Assembly (NCBI GenBank): GCA_008501585.1
Contig: QQUN01000048.1
Span: forward strand, 1 to 53,902
From: Pseudomonadota bacterium
Lineage (GTDB): Bacteria > Pseudomonadota > Gammaproteobacteria > Burkholderiales > Rhodocyclaceae
DNA: 53,902 bases
Direction of reading: 5' to 3'
Under the pieces are notes generated by a model. It was not told where the DNA came from. It saw only the letters and a program-made list of their open reading frames with translations, and did no database searches. Positions within the stretch are counted from its first letter, which is position 1. Each line of letters starts with the position of its first letter. Position numbers and translations under genes: made by a program. Below, piece by piece: positions 3,469-52,070 of this stretch.

Positions 3469-3489
3469 CCCGGCATCGGAGACAGAGGC

Positions 3490-4449
3490 ATGGATCGATC
3501 AAAAACCATACTGGCGGTGGGTGGCAGCGGCTATGTCGGGCACTCGGTGGTCGCTCAGCTGGTGGCCGCGGGCTACCGGGTGCGCGTGCCGACGCGCCAC
3601 CGGCACCGGGCGCGGCATCTGCTGTTGCTGCCGACGGTGGAGGTGGTCGAGGCCGACCTCTTCGATGACACCGCACTCGACCGCTTGATGGACGGCGTCG
3701 GCGCCGTGATCAGCCTGGTCGGCGTGCTGCACTCACCGCCGGGCACGCCGTTCGGGCCGGCCTTCCGGCGCGCCCATGTCGATATACCCGCGCGCCTGGT
3801 GGCCGCCTGCCACCGCCATGGCGTGTCGCGCGTGGTGCACATCAGCGCGCTGGGCGCCGACGCCGACGGGCCGTCGGAATACCAGCGCTCCAAGGCTGCC
3901 GGCGAAGCGGTGATCCGCGATGCCCGGCCGCCGCTGGCGTGGACGATCCTGCGTCCCTCGGTGATCTTCGGCCGCGACGACAGCTTCCTCAACCTCTTCG
4001 CCGGCCTCGTGCGCATCGCGCCGGTGATGCCGCTCGGCGGCGCGAGCTGCCGCTTCCAGCCGGTGTGGGTGGAGGATGTGGCCCGTGTCGTGGTGGCCAG
4101 CCTGGACCGCCCGGACGCCATCGGGCTGTGCGCCGATCTGGCCGGCCCCGGCGTCTACACCCTGGCCGAGCTGGTCGGCTATGTCGGCCGCCTGGTCGGG
4201 CGCCGGCCGCCGATCATCCCCATCCCCGAGGCGCTGGCCATGCTCCAGGCGCGGCTGCTGGAGCTGGCGCCCAAGCCGATGATGAGCCGCGACAACGTGC
4301 GCTCGATGCGGGTCGACAACATCACCGACGGCCCGCCGCTGCCCTTTGGCTGGACGCCGACCGCCCTCGAAGCCGTGGCGCCGACCTACCTCGGCCCCCA
4401 CCCCGGTCGTCGCCGTTTCGTCATCAATCGCCGCCGCGCCGTGCGCTGA
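3490..4449 (+). CDS. NAD(P)-binding atypical SDR, complex I NDUFA9-like
   Basis: A 319-residue Rossmann-fold protein. The N-terminal dinucleotide motif is AVGGSGYVGHSVV. Further features are VISLVGVLHSPPGTPF, RVVHISALGADAD, SEYQRSKAAGEAVIR and the ILRPSVIFGRDDSFLN block typical of complex I NDUFA9-subunit family proteins. Asp in DADGPSEY replaces the usual catalytic Tyr context, as in atypical SDRs. In bacteria these proteins are often annotated as NAD-dependent epimerases, and the substrate is not known. It sits between the lytic transglycosylase and cca on the same strand, with short gaps (21 and 47 bases). Confidence 0.85.
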   Translation: MDRSKTILAVGGSGYVGHSVVAQLVAAGYRVRVPTRHRHRARHLLLLPTVEVVEADLFDDTALDRLMDGVGAVISLVGVLHSPPGTPFGPAFRRAHVDIPARLVAACHRHGVSRVVHISALGADADGPSEYQRSKAAGEAVIRDARPPLAWTILRPSVIFGRDDSFLNLFAGLVRIAPVMPLGGASCRFQPVWVEDVARVVVASLDRPDAIGLCADLAGPGVYTLAELVGYVGRLVGRRPPIIPIPEALAMLQARLLELAPKPMMSRDNVRSMRVDNITDGPPLPFGWTPTALEAVAPTYLGPHPGRRRFVINRRRAVR

Positions 4450-4496
4450 AGCACTTCCAGCAGCGATAATGCGGCTTTGCCAAGACTGACGGCCGC

Positions 4497-5600
4497 ATGA
4501 AGACATACATCGTAGGCGGCGCCGTGCGGGACGAACTGCTCGGCCTGCCGGTGCAGGATCGGGACTGGGTGGTGGTCGGCGCCACCGTCGAGGCCATGCG
4601 CTCGCGCGGCTTCACCCCCGTGGGCAAGGATTTCCCGGTATTCCTCCACCCCGACACTCACGAGGAGTACGCGCTGGCGCGCACCGAGCGCAAGAGCGGC
4701 CACGGCTACACCGGCTTCGTGGTGCATGCCGCGCCGGACGTCACGCTTGAAGACGACCTGCTGCGCCGCGACCTGACCATCAACGCCATGGCTCGCGGCG
4801 AGGACGGCACCCTGGTCGACCCCCACGGCGGCCAGCGTGACCTGGCGGCCAAAGTGCTGCGCCATGTCAGCCCCGCCTTTGCCGAAGACCCGGTGCGCAT
4901 CCTGCGCGTGGCCCGCTTCGCCGCGCGCTTCGATAGCTTTACGGTGGCGGACGAAACCCTGGCGCTGATGCGCCGGATGGTCGACAGCGGCGAGGCTGAC
5001 CACCTGGTCCCAGAGCGGGTCTGGCAGGAAATCTCGCGCGGCCTGATGGCGCCGGCGCCGATGCGCATGATCGACGTGCTCGACGCCTGCGGCGCGCTGG
5101 CCCGCTGCCTGCCCGAGGTGGTGGCGCGGCGGCGGATCGACCCGTTGCTGCCCGGTGTGCTGCGCTGCGCCGTGGCGCGCGATCTGCCACTGGCTCATCG
5201 CTGGGCGCTGCTGGTCGGCCATGCCGTGGACGCCGCCGAGTCGGCCAGCGCACGGCTCAAGGTGCCCCTGCCCTGCCGCGACCAGGCGGTGATCCTGGCC
5301 CGCGACGGCGAGACCCTGGCCACTGCCAGCTCGGCGGTGGCGCGGCTCGAACTGCTCGGCCGTTGCGATGCCTTCCGTCGCCCCGAGCGGCTCATCAGCT
5401 TGCTCGAAGCGGCGCCCTGCGCCCACCCGGTGCCGGCACCGGCGGTGGCCCGCTGGCAGGCCACGCTGGCCGCCGCGCAGGCGGTCGACGGCGGTGCGGT
5501 GGCGCGCCAGTGCGCCGACAAGTCGGCGATTCCGGCGGCCATTCGCGCCGCCCGCCTGGCCGCCATCGAGGCAGCCGACGCGGCCGCGGGCCGTGGCTGA
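4497..5600 (+). CDS. cca: CCA-adding tRNA nucleotidyltransferase, HD domain degenerate
   Basis: Adds or repairs the 3'-CCA end of tRNAs. The class II polymerase-beta-like head is intact: [57 protein letters not shown], and the neck [21 protein letters not shown]. In E. coli Cca the C-terminal half is an HD phosphohydrolase with HxD, HDLGKG and HHGH motifs. Here that region is shortened (367 against 412 residues). [26 protein letters not shown] runs straight into RLKVP where HDLGKG and HHGH would be, so those metal-binding residues are absent. Nucleotidyltransferase activity is expected, but 2',3'-cyclic phosphodiesterase and phosphatase activities are not. Confidence 0.93.
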
Positions 5601-5649
5601 CACCTTTGCTCACACCCGCTGCGCCGTGGCGCGTGCCACACTGCGGGCC

Positions 5650-7524
5650 ATGATCGTCTGGTGTCGAACGTCGTTCTTGGCGCTGGGGCTGTCGCTGCTC
5701 ACCGCTGCAGCCGCCCAGGCGCAAACGCAGCACATCCCCGATTTTGCCGAGGTGCGCGCCGCCCATGCGAGCAGTGTCGCCCGCCTGGTCGACCGCCACG
5801 GCGAGCCGCTGGCCGAGCGCCAGCTGCGCTTCGACGACGATCGCCTCGACTGGGTCGGGCTCGACGCCCTGTCGCCGGCCATGCTCGAAGCCCTGCTCCA
5901 GGCCGAGGACCGGCGTTTCTACCAGCACGAGGGCATCGACTGGCGGGCGGTGGCCGCCGCCGCGGTGCAGAACCTGTGGTTCGAGCATGCCCGCGGTGCC
6001 TCCACCCTGACCATGCAGCTGGCCGGCCTGCTCGACCCGGCGCTGCAGCCGGCCGCCGTCGGCCAGCGGCGCCGCAGCTTCGAACAGAAGTGGGATCAGG
6101 CCTTGGCGGCACAGGCGCTCGAGGCCCGCTGGAGCAAGGCGCAGATTCTCGAGGCCTACCTCAACCTGGCGCCGTTCCGCGGGCGCCTGCGCGGCATTTC
6201 GGCCGCCGCCTGGGCGCTCACCGGCAAGGCGCCGGCCGCGCTCGACCGGCCCGAAGCCGCCGTGCTCGCCGCCTTGCTGCGCGGGCCGGGCGCGACACCG
6301 GCGTTGCTTGCCCGGCGGGCCTGCACGCTGGTGGCGCAGATTGGCAGCCCGGCCGCGTGTGAGCGCGTGCAGGCGATCGCCGCCGCGGTCGACCCGGCGG
6401 TGCTGTCGCCGCGCTGGCAGCTGGCGCCGCATCTGGCGGCGCGGCTGCTGCGCTCACCGGGCACCACCGTTGCCACGCTCATCGACGCCGGCTGGCAGCG
6501 GCGCATGCTGGGCGCGCTGCGCGCCGCCGCGCCGGCCCGCGCTGCCGTGGTGGTGCTCGACAACGCCTCCGGTGCGGTGCTGGCCGATGTCGGCGGGCTC
6601 AGCCCCGAGCATGCCGACGCCACCGGGTTTGCGTATCCGGCCCCCGCCATGCGTTGGCCGTTGCAGGTCGCCCGGGCGCTCGACCGGCGCGTGGTCACGG
6701 CGGCGAGCCTGCTCAACGCCGATTCGGAGGCGGCGCCGCGCTGGACCAGCGTGCGGGCGGCGGCGATGGCGGGGGAGGGCGCTGCCCTCGCGGCGCTGTC
6801 GCGACGGCAGGCCGAAGGCGAGACGCTGCCGCTGGCGACCGGGCCGGTCGACCTGGTCCGCCTGGCGGGGCTGATGCGGATGCTGGCGGTCGATGGCCAG
6901 TGGCGCGAGCCGTTCTGGCAGCCGGCCGCGGCGCGTCCGGCCGAGGCCGTGGTGTCGCCCGCGGCGGCCTTCGTGGCGCGGGATCTGTTCCCGCCGCTGA
7001 TGGCCGAGATGGTCACGCCGGGCCGCGCGGCCTGGGCGACCGGGAGCAACGCCGCGGTGACCATCGCGGTGTGGATGGAGACCGGCCCCACGGCGTTGAT
7101 CGAGGTGCGCGCCTGGCTGGCCGACCAGCTCGCCGGCGACGGCACATGGCCGGCCGAACAGGTGGTGCCCGCCGGTGTGGTGCGCCGCCCGGTGCGTTTC
7201 GATCCGCCGGTCGAGCCGGCGCGCGATGAATGGTTTCTGGCCGGCACCGCCGTGGCCGTGGCGTCGCCGCCGCAGGTGACGGCACAGATCGCCTGGCCGG
7301 CGCCGCGCAGCATCATCGACCTGCGGGCCGCAGCGCCCGGGCAGGGCGTGTTGCTGCGCGCCACGGCGGACGATGCGCGCTTGCGCTGGCGCATGGACGG
7401 GCGCGAGGTCGGTAGTGGGGGGGCGGTGTGGGTCCACCCGGCGCCGGGTGTGCGCGTGATCGAGCTGCTCGATGGGCGCGGCGAGCGCCTGGACCGTGTC
7501 AGCGTGGCGGTGCGCGGCGGCTGA
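5650..7524 (+). CDS. pbpC: PbpC-like peptidoglycan glycosyltransferase with a dead transpeptidase domain
   Basis: Family: penicillin-binding protein 1C, bifunctional class A. This protein has 624 residues (about 770 in E. coli). It has a signal sequence (WCRTSFLALGLSLLTAAAAQAQ) and a GT51 glycosyltransferase domain at about 70-235 with AEDRRFYQHEGIDW (catalytic Glu86), GASTLTMQLAG and QILEAYLNLAPF. A shortened transpeptidase region and a BiPBP_C-like tail (LRWRMDGREVGSGG, VRVIELLDGRG) follow. The SxxK region reads PAPAMRWPLQVARALD, and where KTGTS is expected there is WATGSNAAVTIAVWME. Both Ser and Lys are therefore missing and beta-lactam-sensitive activity is not expected. The ATG at 5650 begins the signal peptide. 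The stop codon falls on the end of repeat copy A. Confidence 0.85.
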   Translation: MIVWCRTSFLALGLSLLTAAAAQAQTQHIPDFAEVRAAHASSVARLVDRHGEPLAERQLRFDDDRLDWVGLDALSPAMLEALLQAEDRRFYQHEGIDWRAVAAAAVQNLWFEHARGASTLTMQLAGLLDPALQPAAVGQRRRSFEQKWDQALAAQALEARWSKAQILEAYLNLAPFRGRLRGISAAAWALTGKAPAALDRPEAAVLAALLRGPGATPALLARRACTLVAQIGSPAACERVQAIAAAVDPAVLSPRWQLAPHLAARLLRSPGTTVATLIDAGWQRRMLGALRAAAPARAAVVVLDNASGAVLADVGGLSPEHADATGFAYPAPAMRWPLQVARALDRRVVTAASLLNADSEAAPRWTSVRAAAMAGEGAALAALSRRQAEGETLPLATGPVDLVRLAGLMRMLAVDGQWREPFWQPAAARPAEAVVSPAAAFVARDLFPPLMAEMVTPGRAAWATGSNAAVTIAVWMETGPTALIEVRAWLADQLAGDGTWPAEQVVPAGVVRRPVRFDPPVEPARDEWFLAGTAVAVASPPQVTAQIAWPAPRSIIDLRAAAPGQGVLLRATADDARLRWRMDGREVGSGGAVWVHPAPGVRVIELLDGRGERLDRVSVAVRGG

Positions 7525-7683
7525 GAACTTGTGAAGAAATCGTAGCGAGCAGGGCCGAGTGCAAGGCCGCATTTGGCAACTGCGCGAGCGAACGACGAGA
7601 CATATCAAATGGATAGGCGAGGCGTGAGCGAGTGAGCAACGCAGCAATCGGCGCGCGCAGTAGATTTATTCACAAGTTCTGAG
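7521..7683 (+). repeat. Short interspersed element, copy A, with terminal inverted repeats
   Basis: About 163 bp. The left end is CTGAGAACTTGTGAAGAAATC. The reverse complement of the right end is CTCAGAACTTGTGAATAAATC, so 19 of 21 bases match as terminal inverted repeats. The body matches copy B at 20199-20349 in inverted orientation. One block near 7570-7585 (around GCATTTGGCAACT) is present in A and absent from B. No coding capacity. The TGA in the left end is the stop codon of the pbpC-like gene. It resembles a MITE or palindromic repeat, but no parent transposase is seen. Confidence 0.85.
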
Positions 7684-7697
7684 TCCGGGCGGCGGCG

Positions 7698-7898
7698 CTA
7701 CAGCCAGCGCAGGATCAGCCACGCCAGCAGGGACATCAGGACGGTGCTGGTGAACGGCAGGTGCCAGGTGCGGCCGTTGCGCTCCAGCGTGATGTCGCCG
7801 GGCAGCCGGCCCAGCGGCACATAGCGCGCCAGCAAGGGCTGCAGGCCGCCGAGCAGTCCGACCACGATCACGATGGAAACCAGCCATTTGAGCAGCAT
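7698..7898 (-). CDS. DUF2905 family small membrane protein
   Basis: A 66-residue protein from MLLKWLVSIV, with two hydrophobic segments (WLVSIVIVVGLLGGL, and LMSLLAWLILRWL at the C-terminus). Between them is a short loop LGRLPGDITLERNGRTWHLPF. The G-x-LPGDI and FPFTS-like pattern is characteristic of DUF2905 inner-membrane proteins of unknown function. A longer start at 7925 would add nine polar residues (MPSPSANGG). The start at 7898 was chosen because the family begins with the first membrane helix, but neither start has a strong ribosome binding site. It lies just beyond the right end of repeat copy A. Confidence 0.8.
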   Translation of the reverse strand: MLLKWLVSIVIVVGLLGGLQPLLARYVPLGRLPGDITLERNGRTWHLPFTSTVLMSLLAWLILRWL

Positions 7899-8066
7899 GC
7901 CGCCGTTCGCCGAGGGGGAGGGCACCGATTACATCGGATTGTCCGGTCCTTGCCAAGGCAATTATGCATGGCCTGGGCCGGCGGAATCGGCTACCGTGGC
8001 ACGATCGTGCGCTTGTGCCGGAACGGCCGCGCACCCGCAAGAACGTGCAATCAAGGATCTGGACGT

Positions 8067-8873
8067 ATGAACCGCAGCCGATTCGGCGACCTCGAAGTAT
8101 TGGCCAGCGCGCCCGATGGCGAAGCGCACCCGGTGCCCCTGTTGTTTGTGCATGGCGCCTATGCCGGGGCCTGGTGCTGGGCCGAGCACTTCATGCCCTG
8201 GTTTGCCGAGGCCGGCTTCACCAGCTACGCCGTGTCGCTGTCGGGCCACGGCCACAGCCGCCGGCGCGACCTGCTCGACAGCTACAGCATCGCGGACTAT
8301 GTCGACGACCTGGCCGAGGTGGTGGCCGAGCTGCCGGTGGCGCCGGTGCTGATCGGCCACTCGATGGGCGGCATGGTGGTGCAGAAATACCTCGAGCGTG
8401 CCGAGGTGCCGGCGACGGTCCTGATGGCCTCGGTGCCGCCGCAGGGCTTGTGGACCTCGGCGGTCGGGCTGATGTTTCGCAAGCCCATGCTGCTGCAGGA
8501 TCTCAACCGCATCATGGGTGGCGGGGCGGCCCAGGCCTCGACCCTGCGCGACGCGCTGTTCCACCAGCCGGTCGACGCCGACGATATGCGTCGTTACCTC
8601 GCCGCGTCACAACCGGAAAGCCATCGCGCGATCTGGGATATGACCCTGTTCAACCTGCCGCAGGTGGGGCGCATGACCCGCTCGCCCATGCTGATTCTGG
8701 GGGCGGAGCACGATCAGCTCATCCCGCCGTCGCTGGTGCGCATGACCAGTTCGGTGTACGGCCTGGACGATGACATCTTCCCCGGCATGGGGCACGCCAT
8801 GATGCTCGAGCAGGGCTGGGAGGCGGTGGCGGTGCGGATCCGCGACTGGCTGCGTGACACGCTGGCCGCCTGA
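8067..8873 (+). CDS. Alpha/beta-hydrolase (lysophospholipase/esterase-like)
   Basis: A 268-residue cytoplasmic alpha/beta-hydrolase. Motifs in order: LLFVHGAYAGAWCWAEHF (oxyanion HG and the W-rich cap common in MhpC/lysophospholipase-like enzymes), LSGHGHS, the nucleophile elbow GHSMGG with Ser99, LILGAEHDQLIPPS with the catalytic Asp, and GMGHAMMLEQGW with the catalytic His. The triad is complete. The substrate cannot be deduced. The start at 8067 is the first Met in phase with family alignments, and the region before it contains the perfect palindrome GCACGATCGTGC (7999-8010). A 7 bp hairpin (8928-8944) lies downstream. Confidence 0.88.
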   Translation: MNRSRFGDLEVLASAPDGEAHPVPLLFVHGAYAGAWCWAEHFMPWFAEAGFTSYAVSLSGHGHSRRRDLLDSYSIADYVDDLAEVVAELPVAPVLIGHSMGGMVVQKYLERAEVPATVLMASVPPQGLWTSAVGLMFRKPMLLQDLNRIMGGGAAQASTLRDALFHQPVDADDMRRYLAASQPESHRAIWDMTLFNLPQVGRMTRSPMLILGAEHDQLIPPSLVRMTSSVYGLDDDIFPGMGHAMMLEQGWEAVAVRIRDWLRDTLAA

Positions 8874-39902: not shown

Positions 39903-40805
39903 TCAGGCGGCGGCAACGTATTGTTCGAGGCCCGGCTTGCCATGCCAGAAGCCGTTGCAGGGCGCTTCGGGCATCAGCGCCTGGGACTGGGCGAAGGCGT
40001 CGGCAGGGGCGATGTCGCCGTCGATGGCGCGGCGGAACAGCGCCAGCAGCTCGGGCATGTGCGCGGACTGCGGCAGCACGCGCAGCACATCGACGCCCGA
40101 GGCCTGCAGCGCCGGCAGGTCGCCGAGCAGGTTGTAGACCTTGGCCGACTGCGTCTGGATGCCGTTGAGCGTCAGGAAGGCTTCGCCTTCGCGGGTTTTC
40201 AGGGGCATGCCCTCGGCGTGCTGCAGGCAGCGGAACTCGCAGGTGTCTTTCTGCAGGTTGAAGTGGCGGGCGGTGAAGCAGCGTGCCGAGTAGGCCAGCG
40301 GCAGGCGGCCGTAGGCGGTGACTTCCACCTCCGGGCGCGGCTCGCAGGCGGCGAGCAGGCCGTCCATGGCCTCGCGCGCCATCTCCGGCGGCACCGCCCA
40401 GCGGGTGGCGCCCTGGTCGGCGAACACGGCCATGGTCTCGGGGTTGAACACATTGAGTGTCGGCCCGGCGACCCAGTGCCGGTGGCCGGCGCGGATCAGT
40501 GCCTGCACGGCGGCCATGTCGTTGGCCTCGACCCGGAAGTCCGGCTGGCCGACCAGCTTGCGCAGCACTTTCAGGTCCGACTCGGATTCGATCAGCACCA
40601 GCGAGGAAAACACCACCTCCTTGCCGGCCTCGGCGAGCACACGGGCGACGTCGAACCAGTCGTCGAGGCGCATTTCATGCCGGCGGGAGCACACCGATTC
40701 GCCGACATAGACGATGTCGACCGGCGATTCGGCCACGTCGGCGTAGAAGTCCATCATGGCCTGGCGCGGCCAGTAGTATTGATGCGGTCCGAGGGCGAGT
40801 TTCAT
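39903..40805 (-). CDS. ubiV: Oxygen-independent ubiquinone hydroxylase component UbiV
   Basis: U32-family [4Fe-4S] protein that with UbiU hydroxylates ubiquinone precursors without O2 (prephenate as oxygen donor in E. coli). A 300-residue protein. The four cluster cysteines are Cys39 (VGESVCSRR), Cys176 (YSARCFTAR), Cys189 and Cys193 (KDTCEFRC), the same pattern as in the characterised UbiV. KLALGPHQYYWPRQAMMDFY begins the TIM-barrel-like fold. A start two codons upstream is possible. Nine bases separate it from ubiU. Confidence 0.95.
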   Translation of the reverse strand: MKLALGPHQYYWPRQAMMDFYADVAESPVDIVYVGESVCSRRHEMRLDDWFDVARVLAEAGKEVVFSSLVLIESESDLKVLRKLVGQPDFRVEANDMAAVQALIRAGHRHWVAGPTLNVFNPETMAVFADQGATRWAVPPEMAREAMDGLLAACEPRPEVEVTAYGRLPLAYSARCFTARHFNLQKDTCEFRCLQHAEGMPLKTREGEAFLTLNGIQTQSAKVYNLLGDLPALQASGVDVLRVLPQSAHMPELLALFRRAIDGDIAPADAFAQSQALMPEAPCNGFWHGKPGLEQYVAAA

Positions 40806-40814
40806 GGGCACGAC

Positions 40815-41828
40815 TTATTTCCAGGGGCGGTAGTAGGCGCCGAGCGTGTGGCTCTGGCCTTCGGAGACATTGTTGAGCGCGGTCATCCATTCGGGCTGGA
40901 CGGCGAAGCGTTCGCCGTCGGCCTTGAGGCGGTCGATGGCGGCGCGCCACACGCGGGTGACCTGCTGCACATAGGCCGGGCTGCGCTGGCGGCCCTCGAT
41001 CTTGATGGCGCGCACGCCGGCGCGGGCCAGGTCGGGCAGCAGCTCCAGGGTGTTCAGGCTGGTTGGCTCTTCGATGGCGTAGTAGGTGTCGTCACCGACG
41101 GCGAAGCGGCCCTTGCACAGGGTGGGGTAGCCGGCGCGCTCGTCGTCGCCGAAGCGATCGATGAGGATGCCGTTGAGCCGGGTTTCCATGCCCGTGGGGG
41201 TCTGTTCCCAGCGCACATGCTTGCCCGGCGAGCAGGCGCCGTTGCAGTTGGGCGACTCACCCGTGGCGTAGGCTGACAGCGAGCAGCGCCCCTCGACCAT
41301 CACGCACAGGCCGCCAAAGCCGAAGACTTCGATCTCGACCGGGGTGTTCTTGATGACGTGTTCGACCTGCGGCAGCGACAGCACGCGCGGCAGCACGGCG
41401 CGCTGGATGCCGAACTGCTCGTGGTAGAAGTTGATGGCTTCGTAGCTGGTGGCCGAACCCTGCACAGACAGGTGCAGGCGCAGCGCCGGGTGGGTGCGGT
41501 TGGCGTAGCGCATCAGGCCCGGGTCGGCCAGGATCACGGCGTCGACGCCCATGTCGGCGGCGGTGTCGATGGTTTTCGTCCACTCGGGCCAGTTGCCGGC
41601 CTGCGGGTAGGTGTTCAGCGCCAGCAGCACCTTGCGGCCGCGGTCGTGGGCATAACGGATGCCCTCGCGCATGCTCGCGTCGGTGAAGTTCAGGCCGGTG
41701 AAGTTCCGCGCGTTGGTGGCGTTCTTGAAGCCGACGTAAACACAGTCGGCGCCCGCGTCGACGGCGGTTTTCAGGGCGGGCAGGCTGCCGGCGGGGCAGA
41801 CGAGTTCGATCGGAGGGGTGGCAGTCAT
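40815..41828 (-). CDS. ubiU: Oxygen-independent ubiquinone hydroxylase component UbiU
   Basis: U32-peptidase-like [4Fe-4S] partner of UbiV. A 337-residue protein. Motifs: IELVCPAGSLPALKTAVDAG, DCVYVGFKNATNARNFTGLN. Cluster ligands in GFGGLCVMVEGRC (Cys175, Cys182), NGACSPGKHVRW (Cys199) and YPTLCKGRF (Cys238). AIKIEGRQRSPAYVQQVTRV closes the U32 signature. It heads ubiU-ubiV-ubiT. An FNR-type box is centred 62.5 bases before its ATG with a -10 at the right place for class II activation. Confidence 0.95.
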   Translation of the reverse strand: MTATPPIELVCPAGSLPALKTAVDAGADCVYVGFKNATNARNFTGLNFTDASMREGIRYAHDRGRKVLLALNTYPQAGNWPEWTKTIDTAADMGVDAVILADPGLMRYANRTHPALRLHLSVQGSATSYEAINFYHEQFGIQRAVLPRVLSLPQVEHVIKNTPVEIEVFGFGGLCVMVEGRCSLSAYATGESPNCNGACSPGKHVRWEQTPTGMETRLNGILIDRFGDDERAGYPTLCKGRFAVGDDTYYAIEEPTSLNTLELLPDLARAGVRAIKIEGRQRSPAYVQQVTRVWRAAIDRLKADGERFAVQPEWMTALNNVSEGQSHTLGAYYRPWK

Positions 41829-45172: not shown

Positions 45173-45229
45173 ATGACCGGGGCCGGCGTGTGCCCGCCCG
45201 ATGACGCCGGCAGCGAGGTGAGATCATGA
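45173..45229 (+). CDS. Possible 18-codon leader ORF overlapping the caspase start
   Basis: Reads MTGAGVCPPDDAGSEVRS, and its TGA overlaps the caspase ATG (ATGA). The Shine-Dalgarno before it (AGAAGAAG) is weak. If translated it would couple the caspase gene to itself. It could equally be chance: the GC-rich leader has few stops. Confidence 0.2.
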   Translation: MTGAGVCPPDDAGSEVRS

Positions 45230-46020
45230 GCAAACGTGCTTTGACCATCGGGATCAACGACTACCCCGGTACCGATGGCGATCTGTCGGGCTGCGTCAAC
45301 GATGCCCAGGACTGGGCCGCCGTGCTCGGCGGCAAGGGCTACGCCGTCACCACCCTGCTCGACGAGGCCGCCACGCGCGAGGCCATGGTCGAGAAAATCG
45401 GCGACCTGATCGCCGGCTCGGCCAAGGGCGATTCGCTGATCATCACCTACTCCGGCCACGGCACCTGGGTGCCCGACCGCTCCGGCGACGAGGCCGACGG
45501 CCGTGACGAAGCGCTGTGCCCGCACGACATCGGCGACGGCAAGATCCTGCTCGACGACGACCTGCGCGCCCTGTTCGACCAGCGTCCCGCCGGTGTGCGG
45601 GTGGTGCTCATCTCCGACAGCTGCCACTCCGGCTCGGTCACCCGCGGCGACGAGGTCGACCTCGACCCCGGCCTGCCGCGCGCCCGCTTCCTCCCGCCCG
45701 CCAGCTGGATGAGCCTCAGCGCGCTGGCCGCCACCCGCAGCCGGCCGTCGGCCCTGATGGGCGGCATGACCCGCGCCGGCGGCGACCTGCTGCTGGCCGG
45801 CTGCCGCGACACCGAATTCAGCTGGGACACCCAGTTCCGCGGCCGCCCCAACGGCGCCTTCACCTACTACGCCATCAAGACCCTCCACACCCTGCTGCCT
45901 GGCGCCAGCTACCAGCAGTGGTTCCGTGCCATCAGCCACTACCTGCCCTCGACCCGCCTGCCGCAGACCCCGCAGATCTTCGGCTCGCGCACCGCCCGCC
46001 ATTTCGAACTCTTCTCCTGA
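45226..46020 (+). CDS. Caspase-like (peptidase C14 / metacaspase-type) protease
   Basis: A 264-residue stand-alone caspase-clan cysteine peptidase. ALTIGINDYPGTDGDLSGCV opens the p20-like domain. ITYSGHGTWVPD carries the catalytic His78 and VVLISDSCHSGSVTRGDEVD the catalytic Cys133. RDEALCPHDIGDGKILLDDD between them is typical of bacterial metacaspases. The second half ends with NGAFTYYAIKTL and YLPSTRLPQTPQIFG. No signal peptide, no fused domain. The CHAT protein gene follows after 25 bases and the M15 gene after that, same direction. Such peptidases usually activate or process partner proteins, but the target is unknown. Confidence 0.93.
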   Translation: MSKRALTIGINDYPGTDGDLSGCVNDAQDWAAVLGGKGYAVTTLLDEAATREAMVEKIGDLIAGSAKGDSLIITYSGHGTWVPDRSGDEADGRDEALCPHDIGDGKILLDDDLRALFDQRPAGVRVVLISDSCHSGSVTRGDEVDLDPGLPRARFLPPASWMSLSALAATRSRPSALMGGMTRAGGDLLLAGCRDTEFSWDTQFRGRPNGAFTYYAIKTLHTLLPGASYQQWFRAISHYLPSTRLPQTPQIFGSRTARHFELFS

Positions 46021-46045
46021 TCCCGCCCGCACAAGGAACGTGCCC

Positions 46046-49000
46046 ATGCCCGCCACCCCCCGTTTTCGTCTCCGCGGCAGCCCTGCCGCCGCCCGCCAAC
46101 CCGTGACCGAGGCGGTCGGCGTCACCTCGGCGCGGCGGATCGTGCCGGGCGCCGCCCGCAGTGGCGAGGCGGTGAGCGAGGTCGATGCCGATGCCGTGCT
46201 GCGGGTCGAGCTGGAAAACGGCTTCGTGCTGTGGTCGCGCGCCGACGACCTGCTGCGCGAGCGCGGTCAGCGCAGCGTCGGGCGCGATGGCGAAGCCGAA
46301 TGGCAACTCGACTTCGGCCCGCGGTCCGGGCAGGCCGCGGCGGGGACGTCACGCGGCTGGCTGGGCCTGGGCGTGCGCTTGCTCGATGTGTTCGGCGTCG
46401 ACCTCAAGGGCCTGGCGGCCGCCAAGCTCGGCCAGGCACTCGAAGCGCGCGCACTCAAGGGCGCGCCGGGGCTGTACCGGGTGGCGCTCGATGGCGCCTC
46501 GCCCGATCTCCAGCCCGCCGGCGCCACGCTGCCCGCGGCGCCGACGCCACTACTGGTCTTCCTGCACGGCACCGGCTCCAGCACCACCGGCAGCTTCGGC
46601 GCCTTGTGGGAGAAAGACAATGCCGCCGGCGCCGCGCTGCGCACCCGGTTGGCCGAGCGCTACGGTGAGCGCGCCTACGGCCTGGAACACCGCACGCTGA
46701 CCGAAAGCCCGATCACAAACGCCCTGGCGCTGGCGCGTGCCCTGCCCGAGGGCGCCGAGGTGCACCTGGTCAGCCATTCGCGCGGCGGCCTGGTCGGCGA
46801 GTTGCTATGCCTCGGCATGCGCGACGCCGACAGCGAACCGCTCGACGGCAAGCTGATCGACACCTTGTTTGCCGCTGACCGCACCGTCGCCGAGCAGATC
46901 GGCCTGTCGCCGCTCGATACCGCCGCCGCCAAGGCGCGCGACGCCGCCTACGACGCCGACCGGCTGGCGCTCAAGGCGCTGATCGCCGAACTCGACGCCA
47001 AGCGGCTGCGCATCACCCGCTTCGTGCGGGTGGCCTGTCCGGCGCGCGGCACCACGCTGGCCGCCGGCCGGCTCGACCGCTGGCTGTCGGTGCTCGACTT
47101 CCTCGCCGGCGGCGGGCTGTTCGGCGAGGCGCTCGACTTCCTGCTCGCCGTGGTCAAGGCGCGTACCGATCCGCGCACCCTGCCCGGCGTCGAGGCGATG
47201 ATGCCCGGCTCCGCGCTCACCCGCTTGCTGCAGTCGCCCGATCTGGCCGTCACCGCCGACCTGTCGGTGATTGCCGGCGACATCGAAGGCGACTCGCTGT
47301 GGCAGCAGGTCAAGCTGCTGGCCACCGACTGGTTCTACGGTGCCGACCACGACCTGGTGGTCAACACCGGCTCCATGCTCGGCGGCCTGCGCCGCCCCGA
47401 GGGCGCGGCGCGCTACCTGCGCGATGCCGGTGGCGAGGTCAATCACTTCCGTTACTTCACCAACGAAAAGACCGTCAAGTGGCTCGGCCACGGGCTGACC
47501 CGGCCGGAAGGCAACGATGGCGGCTTCCTGCCCATGGCCACGGCCCCCCACGAGGCGCCGCGCTGGCGCGAGGCCGTGCGCCGCAGCCGCGCCGGCGGCA
47601 CCCCGCGGCCGCTGGCGGTGGTGCTGCCCGGCACCATGGGCAGCGTGCTGCAACAGCGTGGCGAAACCGTATGGATCGACTACTGGCGCCTGCTGCGCGG
47701 CCAGCTCAAGCGCCTGCGCATGGGCCAGCCCGATGTCGAGCCGATCGATCTGGTGGGCGACTTCTACGGCCCGATGGTCGAGTTCCTCGCCCGCAGCCAC
47801 CGGGTTGAAATCTTCCCCTACGACTGGCGCCAGTCGGTCACCGCGGCCGCCGCCCGGCTGGCCGAGGCGCTGGCGCAATGGCTGCCGGAGGTGGAAGCCA
47901 GCGGCCAGCCGGTGCACCTGGTGGCGCACTCGATGGGCGGCCTGGTGGTGCGCGCGATGATCGCCGACGGCGGCGCCGGCACCGCCGTGTGGCAGCGCAT
48001 CACGGCCCTGCCCAACAGCCGCTTCGTGATGCTCGGCACGCCCAACCTCGGTTCGCACGAGGCGGTGCGCTGGCTCACCGGCTGCAATCCCACCCAGCAG
48101 AAGCTGGCGCTGCTCGACCTGACCCAGACCACCACCGGCGTGACCGAGATCGTGCGCGACTATCCCGGCCTGCTCGAGTTGCTGCCCTTCGACCCCACCG
48201 GCGCCGACTTTGCCGACGCCGCGCGCTGGAAGGCGCTCAAGGCCGAGCTGTCGGCGGTGTGGCCGCTGGCCGATGCCGCCGCCTTGCGCGAGGCGCGCAA
48301 GACCTGGCAGCGCCTGCTCGATGCGCCCGCCGACCCGCGCCACATGATCTACCTGGCCGGCTGCCAGCCCGCCACAGTGGTCGACTACCGCGTCGAGGCA
48401 TCGCGCGACTGGGACCCGGCCGGCGAGCGCCGGCTGGTGTTCGACGCCACCGCCGAAGGCGACGGCACCGTCACCTGGGCCTCGGGGCGGCTGCCCGGCG
48501 TGCCGGTGTGGTATGTCGAGGACACCGCGCACGACGCCTTGTGCACCCAGAAGCGCGCCTTCCCCGGCCTGCTCGACCTGCTCATGACCGGCACCACCCG
48601 TCGCCTGCCCGCCACGCCACCGCAGCGCACCCGTGCCGGCGTGGTCGAGCCGACCCGCTTCCCGATGCCGGTGGCGCCGTTTACCGATGACTTCCCCGAC
48701 GAGGCGGCTGTGCGTGCGCTCGGCTTCGGCCCCGGCCGGCCACGGTCCGAGGCGGCTCCCTCGGCCGCAGCGCCCACGCTGGCGGTGAGCATCCGCCACG
48801 GCGACCTGGCCTATGCGCGCTACCCGGTGCTGGTCGGCCACTACGCCGGCGACACCATCGTCAGCGCCGAGGCGGCGGTCAACCAGCGCCTTGGCGGCGC
48901 GCTGGCGCAGCGGCTCAACCTTGGCATGTATCCGGCCGCCAACGGCACGCATGCGCTGTTCTTCAACGAAGTGCCCGAGCACAAGCCCTCGGGCGCCATC

Positions 49001-51484
49001 GTGGTCGGGCTCGGCCTGGTCGGTGAGCTGTCGCCGGGCCTGCTCGAGGCCGGTGTGCGCAGCGCGCTGCTCGACTTCGCCCTGCAGGTGGCGCAGTGGC
49101 CCGATGACCTGCGCTTCGGCCCGGCCTCGGCGCCGCGCTCGGCCGCCGTCAGCTGCCTGCTGGTCGGCTCTGGGGCCGGCGGCATGCCGGTGAGCGCCTC
49201 GGTCGATGCGATCCTGCGCGGGGCGGTGTCGGCCAGCGCGGCCCTGGTCGAGCAGGGGCTGGAGAACCGCGTGGTGATCGACGCGGTGGAATTCATCGAG
49301 ATCTACGAAGACGTGGCCATCTCGGCGGCCGAAGGGCTGGAGGCCTGCCTGCACGATGGCGACCTGGCCGGCAAGGCGCGCTGGGCACCGCGCGACATCC
49401 AGAGCGGCGAGGGCCGGCGCCGGCGGGTGCGGTGTGACGAGACGCCCGACTGGTGGCACCGGCTGGAGATCATCGAAGAGCCTGGCCGCGAGGCGCTGCG
49501 CTTCATCTTCGCCACCGACCGCGCCCGTGCCGAAGAAACCCTGATGGCCGGCCAGCTCGAACTGGCCGATGCCTTCATCGCCCAGGCCTCGGCCTCGCCG
49601 GCGGCCAACAGCGAGATCGCCAAGACCTTGTTCGAGATGTTGCTGCCCAACCGCCTCAAGGAGATGGCGCCGCGTCAGACCAACATGGTGGTGATGGTCG
49701 ACGACCGCTCGGCGCGCTATCCGTGGGAACTGCTCGAGAACCGCTGGAGCGTGGGCGACCGGCCCCCGGCCGTGGCGGCCGGGCTGGTGCGCCAGCTCAA
49801 GGCCAGCCAGTTCCGCCAGCAGCCGGCGCATGCGCCGCATGCCAAGGCCTTGGTGGTCGGCAACCCCGACCTCGACGGCTGGCCCGCCTTTGCCGACTTG
49901 CCTGGCGCCCGCCAGGAGGCCGACACCGTGGTCGGCATGCTGCGCAGCGGCGGCTTCGAGGTGCGCGAGAGCATCGACGAACGGGCCGACTCGATCCTCG
50001 CCGGCCTGCATCGCGACGCCTGGCGCATCCTCCATCTGGCCGGGCACGGCGTGCACGAGATGGCCTCCGGCCGGGGGCGTGTCGTCTCCGGCATGGTGAT
50101 CGGCCGCGATGCCGTGCTCACCCCGGGCGATGTCGAGCAGATGCGCTGGGTGCCCGAACTGGTGTTCATCAACTGCTGCCACCTGGGCAAGACGGCGCGC
50201 AGCGAGCCGGCGCGCTTCAACATCCTGGCCGCCAACCTCGCCGTGCAGTTCGTGCGCATGGGCGTGAAGGCCGTGGTTGCCGCCGGCTGGGCGGTGGACG
50301 ACGCCGCGGCCAACGCCTTCGCGGCCAGCTTCTACAAGCACCTGCTCGCCGGCCAGCCCTTTGGCGAAGCGGTGCGCGCCGCTCGCGAGGAGGCGTGGAC
50401 CAGCTTCCCCGGTATCAACACCTGGGGCGCCTACCAGTGCTATGGCGACCCGAGCTACCGCCTGCGTGGCCAGGGCGGGGCGAGTACGCCGCGGGCGGCG
50501 CGGCCGTTCTATGCGCCGTCGGAACTGGTGGTGGCGCTGGAAAACCATGTCCAGTGGGTGCAGATGCAGGTGCAGCGCCATGGCGGCGATGCCGACGAGC
50601 TGGCGGGGCTGCGCGATGGCATCGCGGCGATTCTTGCCCGCGTGCCGCAGGCCTTGTCCGACCGCTGGCTGGCGCGGGCCGATGTGGCCGCGGCGATCGG
50701 CTTTGCCTGGGGCGAGACCGGCGCCTTCGCCGAAGCGGTCGATTGGCTGAACCGTGCGCTGGGGTATGACGAGGGCGACTGCCCGGTGCGCGCCGTCGAG
50801 CAATGCGCCAACTTCAAGGTGCGCCTGGCCGGCCAGGCGTGGACGGCCCTGCGTGGCGCGTCCAGCGCCGACGAGGGGCGCCGGGCCGAGCTGGTGACGC
50901 GCATCGAGGAGGCCATCGCCGAACTTGATCTGATCTGCCGCCGCGCGCCGACCGAAGAGCGCTACACCCTGCTCGGCAGCGCCTGCAAGCGCCTGGCCTG
51001 GCTGCATGCGGCCGAGGGGCCGCGGCTCGAGGCGCTGATCAACATGGGCAACTACTACCGGCTGGCGATGGAGGCGGCCGGCAAGGGGCGGTCGATCTAC
51101 GGCTTCACCAACTGGGCGCTGGCCGAGGTGCTGGCCATCACGCTCGGCGGCAGCGCCGGCACCAGCGCGGCGATCCTGCTCGAAGAATGCGAGGCGATGA
51201 TCGAGGTGGCGCGGGCCAAGAACGCCGCCAATCCCAACTTCTGGGATGCCGCCAGCGAGGCCGACTGCGCGCTGGTGCGGCTGATTGCCAGCGATCCGCG
51301 CACCCGCGCCGCCCGCCGTGGTGCGGAGGACATCACCGCGCTCTACCGACGGGCGCTGGCGCGCGGGGCCAGCCCACGGCAGCGGGCGACGCTGCATGAG
51401 CATCTCGATTTCCTGGTGGCGCTGTGCGAGGGCGCGCGCAAGCCGGTGCGCGACGCGGTGACCGCGATCCGCGCCGGGCTGTGA
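46046..51484 (+). CDS. Giant multidomain protein: two alpha/beta-hydrolases, M17-N-like domain, CHAT protease, helical tail
   Basis: 1812 residues, no signal peptide. Residues 1-165: unknown. First hydrolase about 166-480: LLVFLHGTGSS (171-180), nucleophile Ser245 in HLVSHSRGG, Asp434 in GADHDLVV (or Asp436), His467 in VNHFRYF. Second about 520-860: VVLPGTMGS (527-535, LCAT/PGAP-like), Ser629 in HLVAHSMGG, Asp806 in EGDGTV, His829 in EDTAHDAL. About 912-1040: SIRHGDLAYARYPVLVGHYA and AIVVGLGLVGELSPG, resembling the M17 aminopeptidase N-terminal domain. CHAT about 1195-1480: RYPWELLENRW, His1334 in LAGHGVHE, Cys1378 in FINCCHLGK, end WGAYQCYGDPSYRLRG. The rest is helical, TPR-like. AGGA precedes the ATG at 46046; an in-frame start 40 codons upstream lies inside the caspase gene. 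Confidence 0.9.
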   Translation: MPATPRFRLRGSPAAARQPVTEAVGVTSARRIVPGAARSGEAVSEVDADAVLRVELENGFVLWSRADDLLRERGQRSVGRDGEAEWQLDFGPRSGQAAAGTSRGWLGLGVRLLDVFGVDLKGLAAAKLGQALEARALKGAPGLYRVALDGASPDLQPAGATLPAAPTPLLVFLHGTGSSTTGSFGALWEKDNAAGAALRTRLAERYGERAYGLEHRTLTESPITNALALARALPEGAEVHLVSHSRGGLVGELLCLGMRDADSEPLDGKLIDTLFAADRTVAEQIGLSPLDTAAAKARDAAYDADRLALKALIAELDAKRLRITRFVRVACPARGTTLAAGRLDRWLSVLDFLAGGGLFGEALDFLLAVVKARTDPRTLPGVEAMMPGSALTRLLQSPDLAVTADLSVIAGDIEGDSLWQQVKLLATDWFYGADHDLVVNTGSMLGGLRRPEGAARYLRDAGGEVNHFRYFTNEKTVKWLGHGLTRPEGNDGGFLPMATAPHEAPRWREAVRRSRAGGTPRPLAVVLPGTMGSVLQQRGETVWIDYWRLLRGQLKRLRMGQPDVEPIDLVGDFYGPMVEFLARSHRVEIFPYDWRQSVTAAAARLAEALAQWLPEVEASGQPVHLVAHSMGGLVVRAMIADGGAGTAVWQRITALPNSRFVMLGTPNLGSHEAVRWLTGCNPTQQKLALLDLTQTTTGVTEIVRDYPGLLELLPFDPTGADFADAARWKALKAELSAVWPLADAAALREARKTWQRLLDAPADPRHMIYLAGCQPATVVDYRVEASRDWDPAGERRLVFDATAEGDGTVTWASGRLPGVPVWYVEDTAHDALCTQKRAFPGLLDLLMTGTTRRLPATPPQRTRAGVVEPTRFPMPVAPFTDDFPDEAAVRALGFGPGRPRSEAAPSAAAPTLAVSIRHGDLAYARYPVLVGHYAGDTIVSAEAAVNQRLGGALAQRLNLGMYPAANGTHALFFNEVPEHKPSGAIVVGLGLVGELSPGLLEAGVRSALLDFALQVAQWPDDLRFGPASAPRSAAVSCLLVGSGAGGMPVSASVDAILRGAVSASAALVEQGLENRVVIDAVEFIEIYEDVAISAAEGLEACLHDGDLAGKARWAPRDIQSGEGRRRRVRCDETPDWWHRLEIIEEPGREALRFIFATDRARAEETLMAGQLELADAFIAQASASPAANSEIAKTLFEMLLPNRLKEMAPRQTNMVVMVDDRSARYPWELLENRWSVGDRPPAVAAGLVRQLKASQFRQQPAHAPHAKALVVGNPDLDGWPAFADLPGARQEADTVVGMLRSGGFEVRESIDERADSILAGLHRDAWRILHLAGHGVHEMASGRGRVVSGMVIGRDAVLTPGDVEQMRWVPELVFINCCHLGKTARSEPARFNILAANLAVQFVRMGVKAVVAAGWAVDDAAANAFAASFYKHLLAGQPFGEAVRAAREEAWTSFPGINTWGAYQCYGDPSYRLRGQGGASTPRAARPFYAPSELVVALENHVQWVQMQVQRHGGDADELAGLRDGIAAILARVPQALSDRWLARADVAAAIGFAWGETGAFAEAVDWLNRALGYDEGDCPVRAVEQCANFKVRLAGQAWTALRGASSADEGRRAELVTRIEEAIAELDLICRRAPTEERYTLLGSACKRLAWLHAAEGPRLEALINMGNYYRLAMEAAGKGRSIYGFTNWALAEVLAITLGGSAGTSAAILLEECEAMIEVARAKNAANPNFWDAASEADCALVRLIASDPRTRAARRGAEDITALYRRALARGASPRQRATLHEHLDFLVALCEGARKPVRDAVTAIRAGL

Positions 51485-51500
51485 GGCAGAGGGCCGCGAC

Positions 51501-52070
51501 ATGACCGACCATACCCAGACCCCCATCGCCGACTTCCACCGCGAGATGCTGGCACCGCGTGACCCGGTGTCGGCCAATTTCCTCGCCTACGAGCTGACCC
51601 GCTCCGAGCTGGCCGAGCGCCGCGGCATCGACAACACGTTTGAAACCGACCTCCAATTACAGGCCGCGGTGCATCTGGCGCGCGAGGTGCTGCAGCCGGT
51701 GCGTGACGAATTCGGCGCCTTCACCCCCAACAGCGTGTTCCGCTCGCAGGCGCTGGAGCGGGTGCTCAAGGACCGGCCGGCGAGCTGGATCAGCACCAGT
51801 CAGCACACCCTGGGCGGCGCCTGCGACATCGAGGTCCCCGGCGTGGCGACGCTGGACCTGGCGCGCTGGGTGGTCAAGCACCTGCGCGACTTCGACCAGG
51901 TGATCTGCGAGTGCTACGACCCGCGCAAGGGGCCGAACTCGGGCTGGGTGCACATCTCGCTCAAGCCGCCCGGATCGGGGGCGAACCGGCGGGTGGAGCT
52001 GAGCTACATCCGCGACCCGGGTTCGGGGCGGATGGTCTACGTACCGGGGCTGCGCGCGAGCGTCGCCTGA
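51501..52070 (+). CDS. M15-type D-Ala-D-Ala carboxypeptidase / endolysin-like metallopeptidase
   Basis: A 189-residue peptidase_M15_3 domain protein without signal peptide. The N-terminal FLAYELTRSELAERRGIDN is typical of phage-like M15A enzymes. The zinc site is SQHTLGGACDIEVPG, a perfect SxHxxGxAxD (His102, Asp109). Glu137 in VICECYD is the likely catalytic base and GWVHISL supplies His151. The site is therefore intact. Expected substrate: peptidoglycan stem peptides, outside the cell, so an exit route is needed. It follows the CHAT gene after 16 bases. Its TGA stop lies on the end of degenerate repeat copy C. Confidence 0.85.
   Translation: MTDHTQTPIADFHREMLAPRDPVSANFLAYELTRSELAERRGIDNTFETDLQLQAAVHLAREVLQPVRDEFGAFTPNSVFRSQALERVLKDRPASWISTSQHTLGGACDIEVPGVATLDLARWVVKHLRDFDQVICECYDPRKGPNSGWVHISLKPPGSGANRRVELSYIRDPGSGRMVYVPGLRASVA

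Follow-up and report, generated by a model that had tools for sequence, protein, structure and literature searches.

A caspase, a giant TPR-S protein and an M15 peptidase in Denitromonas: a possible compact conflict or programmed-lysis cassette

Introduction

Why should a caspase, a giant protein with two hydrolase folds and a CHAT protease, and a peptidase of the M15 type lie side by side among housekeeping genes? The question is raised by a stretch of 53,902 nucleotides (contig QQUN01000048.1 of assembly GCA_008501585.1), here called the window, from a bacterium of the genus Denitromonas, with the nearest named loci in D. ohlonensis and D. halophila. An original prediction, made from the DNA letters, had taken the three genes for a conflict or programmed-lysis system. 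With a probability of roughly 50%, we read the locus as a compact cassette of this kind, of the TPR-S (tetratricopeptide repeats-sensor) type. Our observations cover its domains and residues, its gene order and conservation, and the partner genes found in its relatives. A literature search of open-licence papers found no description of this architecture.

Results

Domains and catalytic residues

The three genes are read on a single strand, with gaps of 25 bases between caspase and giant and 16 bases between giant and M15 gene. Coordinates and strand are as first predicted.

45226..46020, plus strand: metacaspase-type caspase, single domain; 264 residues, His78/Cys133 dyad, PF00656
46046..51484, plus strand: giant multi-domain protein; 1812 residues
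46046..46540, plus strand: N-terminus of the giant, about 165 residues; mostly beta in the model, unmatched
46553..47590, plus strand: first alpha/beta-hydrolase (DUF7379); Ser245/Asp436/His467; PF24096, E 8.2e-31; end judged by eye from the model
47603..48625, plus strand: second alpha/beta-hydrolase, phospholipase A2 group XV/LCAT-like; Ser629/Asp806/His829; PF02450, E 2.9e-8; bounds by eye
48779..49351, plus strand: macro-fold domain (macrodomain or M17-N type), candidate nucleotide pocket; bounds from model elements
49613..50449, plus strand: CHAT protease domain; His1334/Cys1378; PF12770, E 6e-32
50726..51121, plus strand: TPR-S domain, residues 1561-1692; PF20308
51501..52070, plus strand: M15 peptidase; 189 residues; PF08291; putative zinc residues His102, Asp109 and His151

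The original prediction named no definite sensor and had missed the TPR-S domain. This domain reaches 40 bits (E 6.3e-10) in Pfam, over a cut-off of 27.6, and 43.4 bits (E 1.3e-10) in the genome scan, where it is the only TPR-S domain over the cut-off in the whole genome. Conservation was read from 65 giants: proteins shorter than 1700 residues (from the 80 loci described below) were removed, as were rows at least 85% identical to a kept one, which reduced 91 to 65. Arg1639 of the TPR-S domain is kept in all 65 and Glu1638 in 64. This C-terminal domain is the likely sensor of the giant. The N-terminal 165 residues or so, one of the two sensor candidates proposed at first, match no Pfam family at E 1 or better.

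The other candidate was an M17-N-like domain. We modelled the giant in two parts with AlphaFold2 (residues 1-880 and 880-1812; 51-row alignments, mean pLDDT 85.7 each) and compared the models with Foldseek, from which alone the macro and CHAT structural assignments come, the region carrying each match being assigned by us from secondary structure. The M17-N-like region matches PepA (best E 1.3e-4), as predicted, and matches macrodomains about equally well: macroH2A1.1 (1zr3, E 4.8e-5, TMt 0.68), 2dx6 (TMt 0.73) and the first macrodomain of PARP14 with ADP-ribose (3q6z, TMt 0.60). Macrodomains and M17-N domains have a common fold, so these matches do not establish ligand binding. In Pfam, read up to E 1, the region matches neither the macro nor the M17-N families, and its Gly988, Gly990, Gly993, Gly1041 and Gly1043 are retained in 62-65 of the 65 giants. 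It remains a candidate sensor and nucleotide pocket, now as a macro fold.

The second hydrolase looks like lysosomal phospholipase A2 and LCAT. Its closest Foldseek match is lysosomal phospholipase A2 (4x92, E 9.3e-11), followed by LCAT, and a profile search of PDB chains agrees with the structure match (4x90, E 1e-5). The activity suggested by these matches is that of a phospholipase, in line with the lipase-like hydrolase first proposed. The C-terminal model matches separase, a SAVED-CHAT filament (8tl0) and the TPR-CHAT protein of Craspase (8d9h), and the CHAT domain thus combines fold and dyad.

All 65 giants keep His174, Ser245, Asp436, His467, Asp806, His829, His1334, Cys1377 and Cys1378. 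Asp412 is retained in 63 and Ser629 in 62, and the second hydrolase has no catalytic serine in the other three. The CHAT dyad and the two Ser-Asp-His triads had therefore been named correctly, with Ser629 alone short of invariant.

The caspase matches Peptidase_C14 (PF00656) with E 3.3e-26. When its family profile was run against PDB chains, the uncharacterised GSU0716 came first (E 1.4e-48), together with the chains of Metacaspase-4, Metacaspase-1, MCA2 and Metacaspase-9 (E 8e-46 to 4e-34). His78 and Cys133 do not vary in the 15 aligned caspases. Fold and His/Cys dyad assign the protein to the metacaspase type (C14). For the EACC1-type caspase model NF047832 it scores 33.8 bits against a cut-off of 140, and its upstream neighbour is a divergent ubiB.

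The M15 protein passes its profile by only 2 bits (Peptidase_M15_3, PF08291: E 1.7e-5, 25.3 bits, cut-off 23.2). Its putative zinc residues His102, Asp109 and His151 are unvarying in 9/9 aligned rows, as expected of the zinc site proposed earlier. A profile search of PDB chains gave no match up to E 0.01, and no signal peptide was seen by eye. The catalytic residues are conserved across giants, caspases and M15 rows, and for this reason the enzymes of the cassette are probably active.

Recurrence of the gene arrangement

Relatives come from a scan of a genome collection in which at least 555 loci were confirmed; the best 80 are described here, some of them from the same genomes as those searched below (e.g. 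Denitromonas L068-L071 and L085). The caspase is the first gene upstream of the giant in 35 loci, the M15 gene is the first downstream in 34, and both flank it in 23. For the 75 loci outside Denitromonas the figures are 31, 30 and 19. The stop of the giant and the start of the M15 gene overlap by 4 bases in 15 of the 34 abutting pairs, all outside the window and with starts as set by the gene caller. Three more pairs overlap by 14 bases, where the gene caller chose an upstream start.

The arrangement exceeds chance, since it recurs in relatives, its genes have ratios of nonsynonymous to synonymous substitution (dN/dS) of 0.05-0.42 over 8 pairs for each of the three genes, and the giant and M15 genes show these 4-base overlaps. 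That the three are unrelated hydrolases, adjacent by accident, we consider extremely improbable. Absences could be cited for it, as the caspase is missing from the adjoining place in 45/80 loci and M15 in 46/80 (some of these loci end at contig ends), but an accident does not account for both flanks in 19/75 loci outside the genus or for overlaps at 15/34 junctions. The predicted unit is therefore seen again beyond Denitromonas.

How tightly are the three genes bound? We drew 399 genomes evenly from the order, own genome included. Only 2 first-look candidates per genome were scored for the giant, 8 for M15 and 6 for the caspase, so the counts may be low. The giant is present in 14/18 genomes with a close caspase (more than 340 bits; Fisher 5e-16) and in 4/7 genomes with a close M15 (Fisher 4e-4), both values uncorrected for relatedness. 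Only 11/19 caspase matches lie within 0.5 kb of the giant, and an exclusive link between caspase and giant was rejected. An exclusive link between M15 and giant was rejected too, with four of seven strong M15 matches abutting the giant and three found in genomes without a giant match. One such homologue (L178:4142-9850) has, within a few kb, two proteins that share 30-31% identity with the SLOG-like/TPR-S family described below. Self-trained gene calls misread several of loci L178-L193 (e.g. L190), and only results backed by profile or BLAST were used there.

On a tree of the giant (FastTree, same 65-row filter, two long branches flagged) the caspase changes state 9 times and M15 7 times, which points to separable modules added to a constant giant. 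For L048-L067 each of the two genes counted wherever it lay in the locus; the rule for L068-L147 was stricter. No signal of correlated gain was found, with 8 pairs being too few. The three-gene set is one variant and not the definition of the system. Of the adjacency foreseen in the original prediction, the recurrence outside the genus holds, and the fixed trio does not.

Partner genes in relatives

Other genes accompany the giant in the best 80 loci. Short SLOG-like proteins occur in 16 (identified by one weak Pfam match, E 0.006, and by eye) and long TPR-S proteins in 8, which gives 24 for the two together. A TIR family is present in 11 loci, in 10 of them with a BLAST link to a TIR protein confirmed by Pfam, and patatins, by Pfam, occur in 4. 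One protein (L065) was left out of a Pfam scan of these partners. In 20 loci there is a protein of about 520 residues that looks, from its sequence, like a membrane protein with several spans; its scanned members have no Pfam match. This family lies downstream of the giant, mostly directly after the M15 gene (F3, L077-L146, e.g. L146:16085-17647), and is likely a further component. The gene order is TPR-S, caspase, giant, M15, membrane protein, patatin, TPR-S in locus L123, and TIR, giant, M15, SLOG-like in locus L094, from Methyloversatilis.

We compared 93 close neighbours of the giant with 93 random genes more than 5 kb from it in the same loci. TIR domains are present in 13/93 neighbours and 3/93 controls (Fisher p 0.016, uncorrected and with rows that are not independent).

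Two TIR fusions adjoin the giant, one with PASTA repeats (L107:5693-7768) and one with a weak SIR2-like match of E 0.0014 (L108:15561-16952). In the TPR-S proteins at L123:7074-9050 and L057:4944-6905, the first 200 residues appear, by eye, nucleoside deoxyribosyltransferase- or TIR-like. Such long TPR-S proteins are possible signal makers. One ThsB subfamily of Thoeris has an active site of the nucleoside deoxyribosyltransferase type, according to excerpts of PMC11204291.

A core locus in Denitromonas

We searched 101 genomes (the own genome and 100 relatives) with the giant, at a cut-off of E 1e-10, and with the M15 gene. The giant matches 30 of them, three (G017, G023 and G032) over the CHAT part alone, and is present in 10/10 Denitromonas genomes, one copy (G005) being split in two at contig ends. 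M15 matches 16 genomes, 12 of them strongly, again with 10/10 Denitromonas. In nine Denitromonas loci, the window and eight others, the complete cassette lies between ubiB and argS; the tenth genome, G005, was not among the loci read for the caspase. This fixed site makes the cassette a stable core locus in Denitromonas rather than part of a defence island, and the defence-island placement envisaged at first was rejected for the genus.

The window confirms the predicted housekeeping setting. A gene for an ABC1/UbiB-type kinase and one for an SSF transporter lie upstream on the minus strand, by Pfam, and argS lies downstream. None of the 13 window genes scanned outside the cassette belongs to a known defence family (51 genes were called). 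The original prediction was also right that the cassette has neither a STAND NTPase nor a gasdermin: Pfam, PADLOC and NCBIfam found none, nor any EACC1 partner, in the cassette. For gasdermin there is no match among the three genes, whose neighbours are ubiB, the SSF transporter and argS. No cassette protein passes an NCBIfam family cut-off. A tandem pair of U32 peptidase genes lies nearby on the minus strand (39903-41828).

In the five pairs closest to the window, the caspase has a dN/dS of 0.05-0.23, the giant 0.09-0.18 and M15 0.13-0.26, beside 0.04-0.13 for ubiB and argS. In three distant pairs it is 0.31-0.42 for the cassette, 0.14-0.28 for ubiB and argS and 0.22-0.71 for the SSF transporter. 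By these values the cassette is kept by selection, and it evolves a little faster than ubiB and argS.

Outside the genus the picture is sporadic, with the giant in 25/399 genomes of the order (own genome included). On its tree an Azotobacter copy falls inside the Thauera/Accumulibacter group, and so crosses classes, and Chromatiaceae copies group with Denitromonas. Azotobacter chroococcum has two different giants in tandem (L074:1943-7432 and 9587 onward), with one caspase ahead and a 293-residue gene between them.

Could the cassette be an autolysis programme, triggered by stress or development and now a core Denitromonas function that is not aimed at phage? It would use the same parts with a metabolic trigger, e.g. 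loss of NAD, and its benefit would be biofilm or kin recycling. Giant and M15 in every genome of the genus, nine loci at the same ubiB-argS site, purifying selection in close pairs near that of the neighbouring genes and 0/13 known defence families among the scanned window genes all fit such a programme. The relatives do not: they are sporadic, sit at differing sites, carry TIR and TPR-S partners and cross classes, as conflict systems do. We regard autolysis as somewhat unlikely.

A strictly anti-phage abortive-infection system is a further alternative, and a decidedly unlikely one. TIR, SIR2-like, TPR-S, caspase and patatin families recur in published defence systems, and Pfam finds all of them among the partners in relatives. 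Thoeris is a precedent for such partner families (excerpts of PMC11204291). In Denitromonas, on the other side, there is no defence island, and the PADLOC matches in the cassette are to individual domains, weak or general, and add up to no system. Defence against phage is one reading among several.

Contractile injection genes beside the cassette

In 7/80 loci, genes of an extracellular contractile injection system (eCIS) lie divergently beside the caspase: two gp19 tubes, a sheath and Pvc16_N, assigned by Pfam on L077 and by BLAST for the others. These loci are L077, L079, L088, L090, L112, L128 and L141 (about 2200-8450, minus strand), to which L194 and L195 add two more; the cassettes concerned belong to a Dechloromonas/Azonexus/Rhodoferax-type group. 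A sheath-like gene alone lies beside the cassette in 4 more of the 80, the one in L078 being a 70-residue piece to which Pfam gives no match. G275 and G391, two genomes of the order sample, have Pvc16_N and a sheath of 83-84% identity next to the cassette, within a longer eCIS cluster (L194 and L195) whose further genes were recognised by eye.

Across genomes, Pvc16_N is found in 8/25 that bear the giant and 41/374 others (p 0.006), and the sheath in 9/25 and 7/55 (p 0.03), the 55 not being randomly chosen. Relatedness and genome size are uncontrolled in both tests, and the own genome was counted as lacking Pvc16_N.

No eCIS structural gene is found among the genes adjoining the cassette in the window. 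A sheath homologue is present in 9/10 Denitromonas genomes, away from the cassette: on another contig in the own genome (G000) and 1.3 Mb off in G002. Sheath and tube are seen in both clusters (L196:13280-16777 and L197:167-9288), with Pvc16_N, eCIS_core and AAA in G002, and the cluster of the own genome reaches the end of its contig, C66. The idea that Denitromonas has no eCIS was dropped, given the sheath in 9/10 genomes, the eCIS genes of G002 and a G000 cluster cut by the contig end.

The cassette might then be a lysis module that opens the cell to release assembled injection particles, since eCIS release is thought to proceed via lysis (excerpts of PMC11297309). The adjacent genes, the higher frequency of Pvc16_N and sheath in giant-bearing genomes and the sheath in Denitromonas favour this idea. 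Yet, of the 11 adjacent loci, the 7 placed on the giant tree belong to a single group of 10 rows, so that the linkage may be one event, and 16/25 giant-bearing genomes have no such sheath. With Denitromonas clusters remote from the cassette and statistics that ignore relatedness and genome size, we consider the eCIS explanation quite unlikely.

Comparison with known systems

Burroughs and Aravind reportedly proposed in 2020 (J Bacteriol) that TPR-S domains receive NAD-derived nucleotide signals. An eLife 2021 paper (PMC8195603), in its excerpts, cites the TPR-S work for such signals. The cassette resembles TPR-S conflict systems in that the giant has a TPR-S domain and its relatives have TIR, SLOG-like, patatin and caspase partners. 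It differs in that a single chain joins two hydrolases, macro-fold, CHAT and TPR-S, an M15 partner is present and Denitromonas has no adjoining NADase.

In Thoeris, as excerpts of PMC11204291 describe it, an ADP-ribose-type nucleotide made by a TIR protein is received by a macrodomain or SLOG effector. The TM-macro ThsA offers a parallel, with a proposed TIR nucleotide and a macro-fold receiver, and some of our relatives pair TIR with the giant. Unlike in the Thoeris of these excerpts, the effector here would be a protease and a phospholipase instead of a membrane helix, with the macro fold as a putative ligand binder. Pfam and PADLOC found neither ThsB nor ThsA in the cassette, and no ThsB adjoins the window genes.

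For VMAP systems, excerpts of PMC7159879 state that the caspase domain always occurs with an adjacent alpha/beta-hydrolase gene. VMAP ternary and EACC1 caspase systems thus share with our locus the pairing of caspase and alpha/beta-hydrolase, and for a related system the same excerpts name peptidoglycan-cutting domains. MoxR, vWA, VMAP and EACC1 components were not found in the cassette.

The giant shares the CHAT fold and His/Cys dyad with SAVED-CHAT and Craspase (8tl0, 8d9h), but the cassette gave no match to a SAVED domain, a gRAMP partner or a CRISPR effector, and the PADLOC match to SAVED_CHAT is weak (E 0.0018). The second hydrolase is like group XV phospholipase A2 and LCAT in fold and triad, and unlike them in being bacterial, fused in a giant chain and of predicted activity.

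Discussion

A compact TPR-S-type cassette for conflict or programmed lysis is our preferred reading, and part of what was first proposed survives in it. The unit, the conflict-type partners and the phospholipase-like hydrolase stand; the defence island and the definition by three genes do not. Homologues are adjacent in relatives, and the lineage in which giant and M15 are universal (10/10 genomes) did not turn out to owe them to a known metabolic role.

In favour of this reading are the TPR-S domain, the macro fold with its conserved glycines, the TIR, SLOG-like, TPR-S and patatin partners in relatives, the retained triads and CHAT dyad, the phospholipase-like hydrolase, the frequent presence of the giant in genomes with the close caspase, and the VMAP and Thoeris precedents. 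Several points weigh against it. TIR and TPR-S domains are among the neighbours, as the proposed link to conflict systems implies, but TPR-S stands at 6/93 against at most 1/93 controls, for which 25 families were listed (p 0.03 if 0, 0.12 if 1, uncorrected and with rows that are not independent), and phospholipase D, at 3/93 against at most 1/93, is not significant. The Denitromonas cassette has no adjoining NADase: no NAD- or nucleotide-processing enzyme was seen next to the window genes, and the nine TIR matches of the own genome (eight over the cut-off) are all on other contigs. None of the 10 Denitromonas genomes yielded the short SLOG-like partner, in a search that had no positive control. 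PADLOC matches the caspase (E 4.6e-15), the giant only weakly and the M15 protein not at all. The cassette is core and stable in Denitromonas, with dN/dS in near pairs close to that of argS, unlike an arms-race gene. Finally, to our knowledge PepA N-domains, which have the same macro fold, are not ADP-ribose sensors.

How might the cassette work? We infer the ligand, the activation, the order of cutting, the lysis and the trigger from the parts and their partners. The single chain of the giant would sense the signal, act as the switch and kill. A TIR protein or a similar enzyme would make an NAD-derived nucleotide, which would bind the TPR-S domain, the macro-fold domain or both. The enzyme would be encoded by the adjoining gene in some relatives and elsewhere in the genome in Denitromonas, where no TIR adjoins the cassette and the signal would thus come in trans. 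Binding would switch on the CHAT protease and free the two N-terminal alpha/beta-hydrolases, of which the LCAT/phospholipase-A2-like one would attack membrane phospholipids. The metacaspase may be a second protease, which either releases the hydrolases by cutting the giant or kills in parallel. As a cytoplasmic product, the M15 enzyme would reach peptidoglycan and cut it once the inner membrane leaks.

In its boldest form, the cassette would be a self-contained pyroptosis-like machine, with TPR-S and macrodomain as receiver, protease and phospholipase in the giant, and a metacaspase and wall peptidase beside it, harnessed for eCIS release in one group. We think this form unlikely.

The cassette is a stable core locus in Denitromonas, yet modular and conflict-associated elsewhere. 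If the preferred reading is true, one bacterial protein would couple an ADP-ribose-type receiver to proteolysis and phospholipid hydrolysis, without STAND NTPase or gasdermin. This would give a testable model for killing by prokaryotic metacaspases, a long-open question, and would also address the role of TPR-S domains in bacteria. Bacterial conflict systems are said to be the source of parts of the animal ASK signalosome (excerpts of PMC8195603). The eCIS neighbourhood, for its part, offers a route to ask how injection particles exit the cell.

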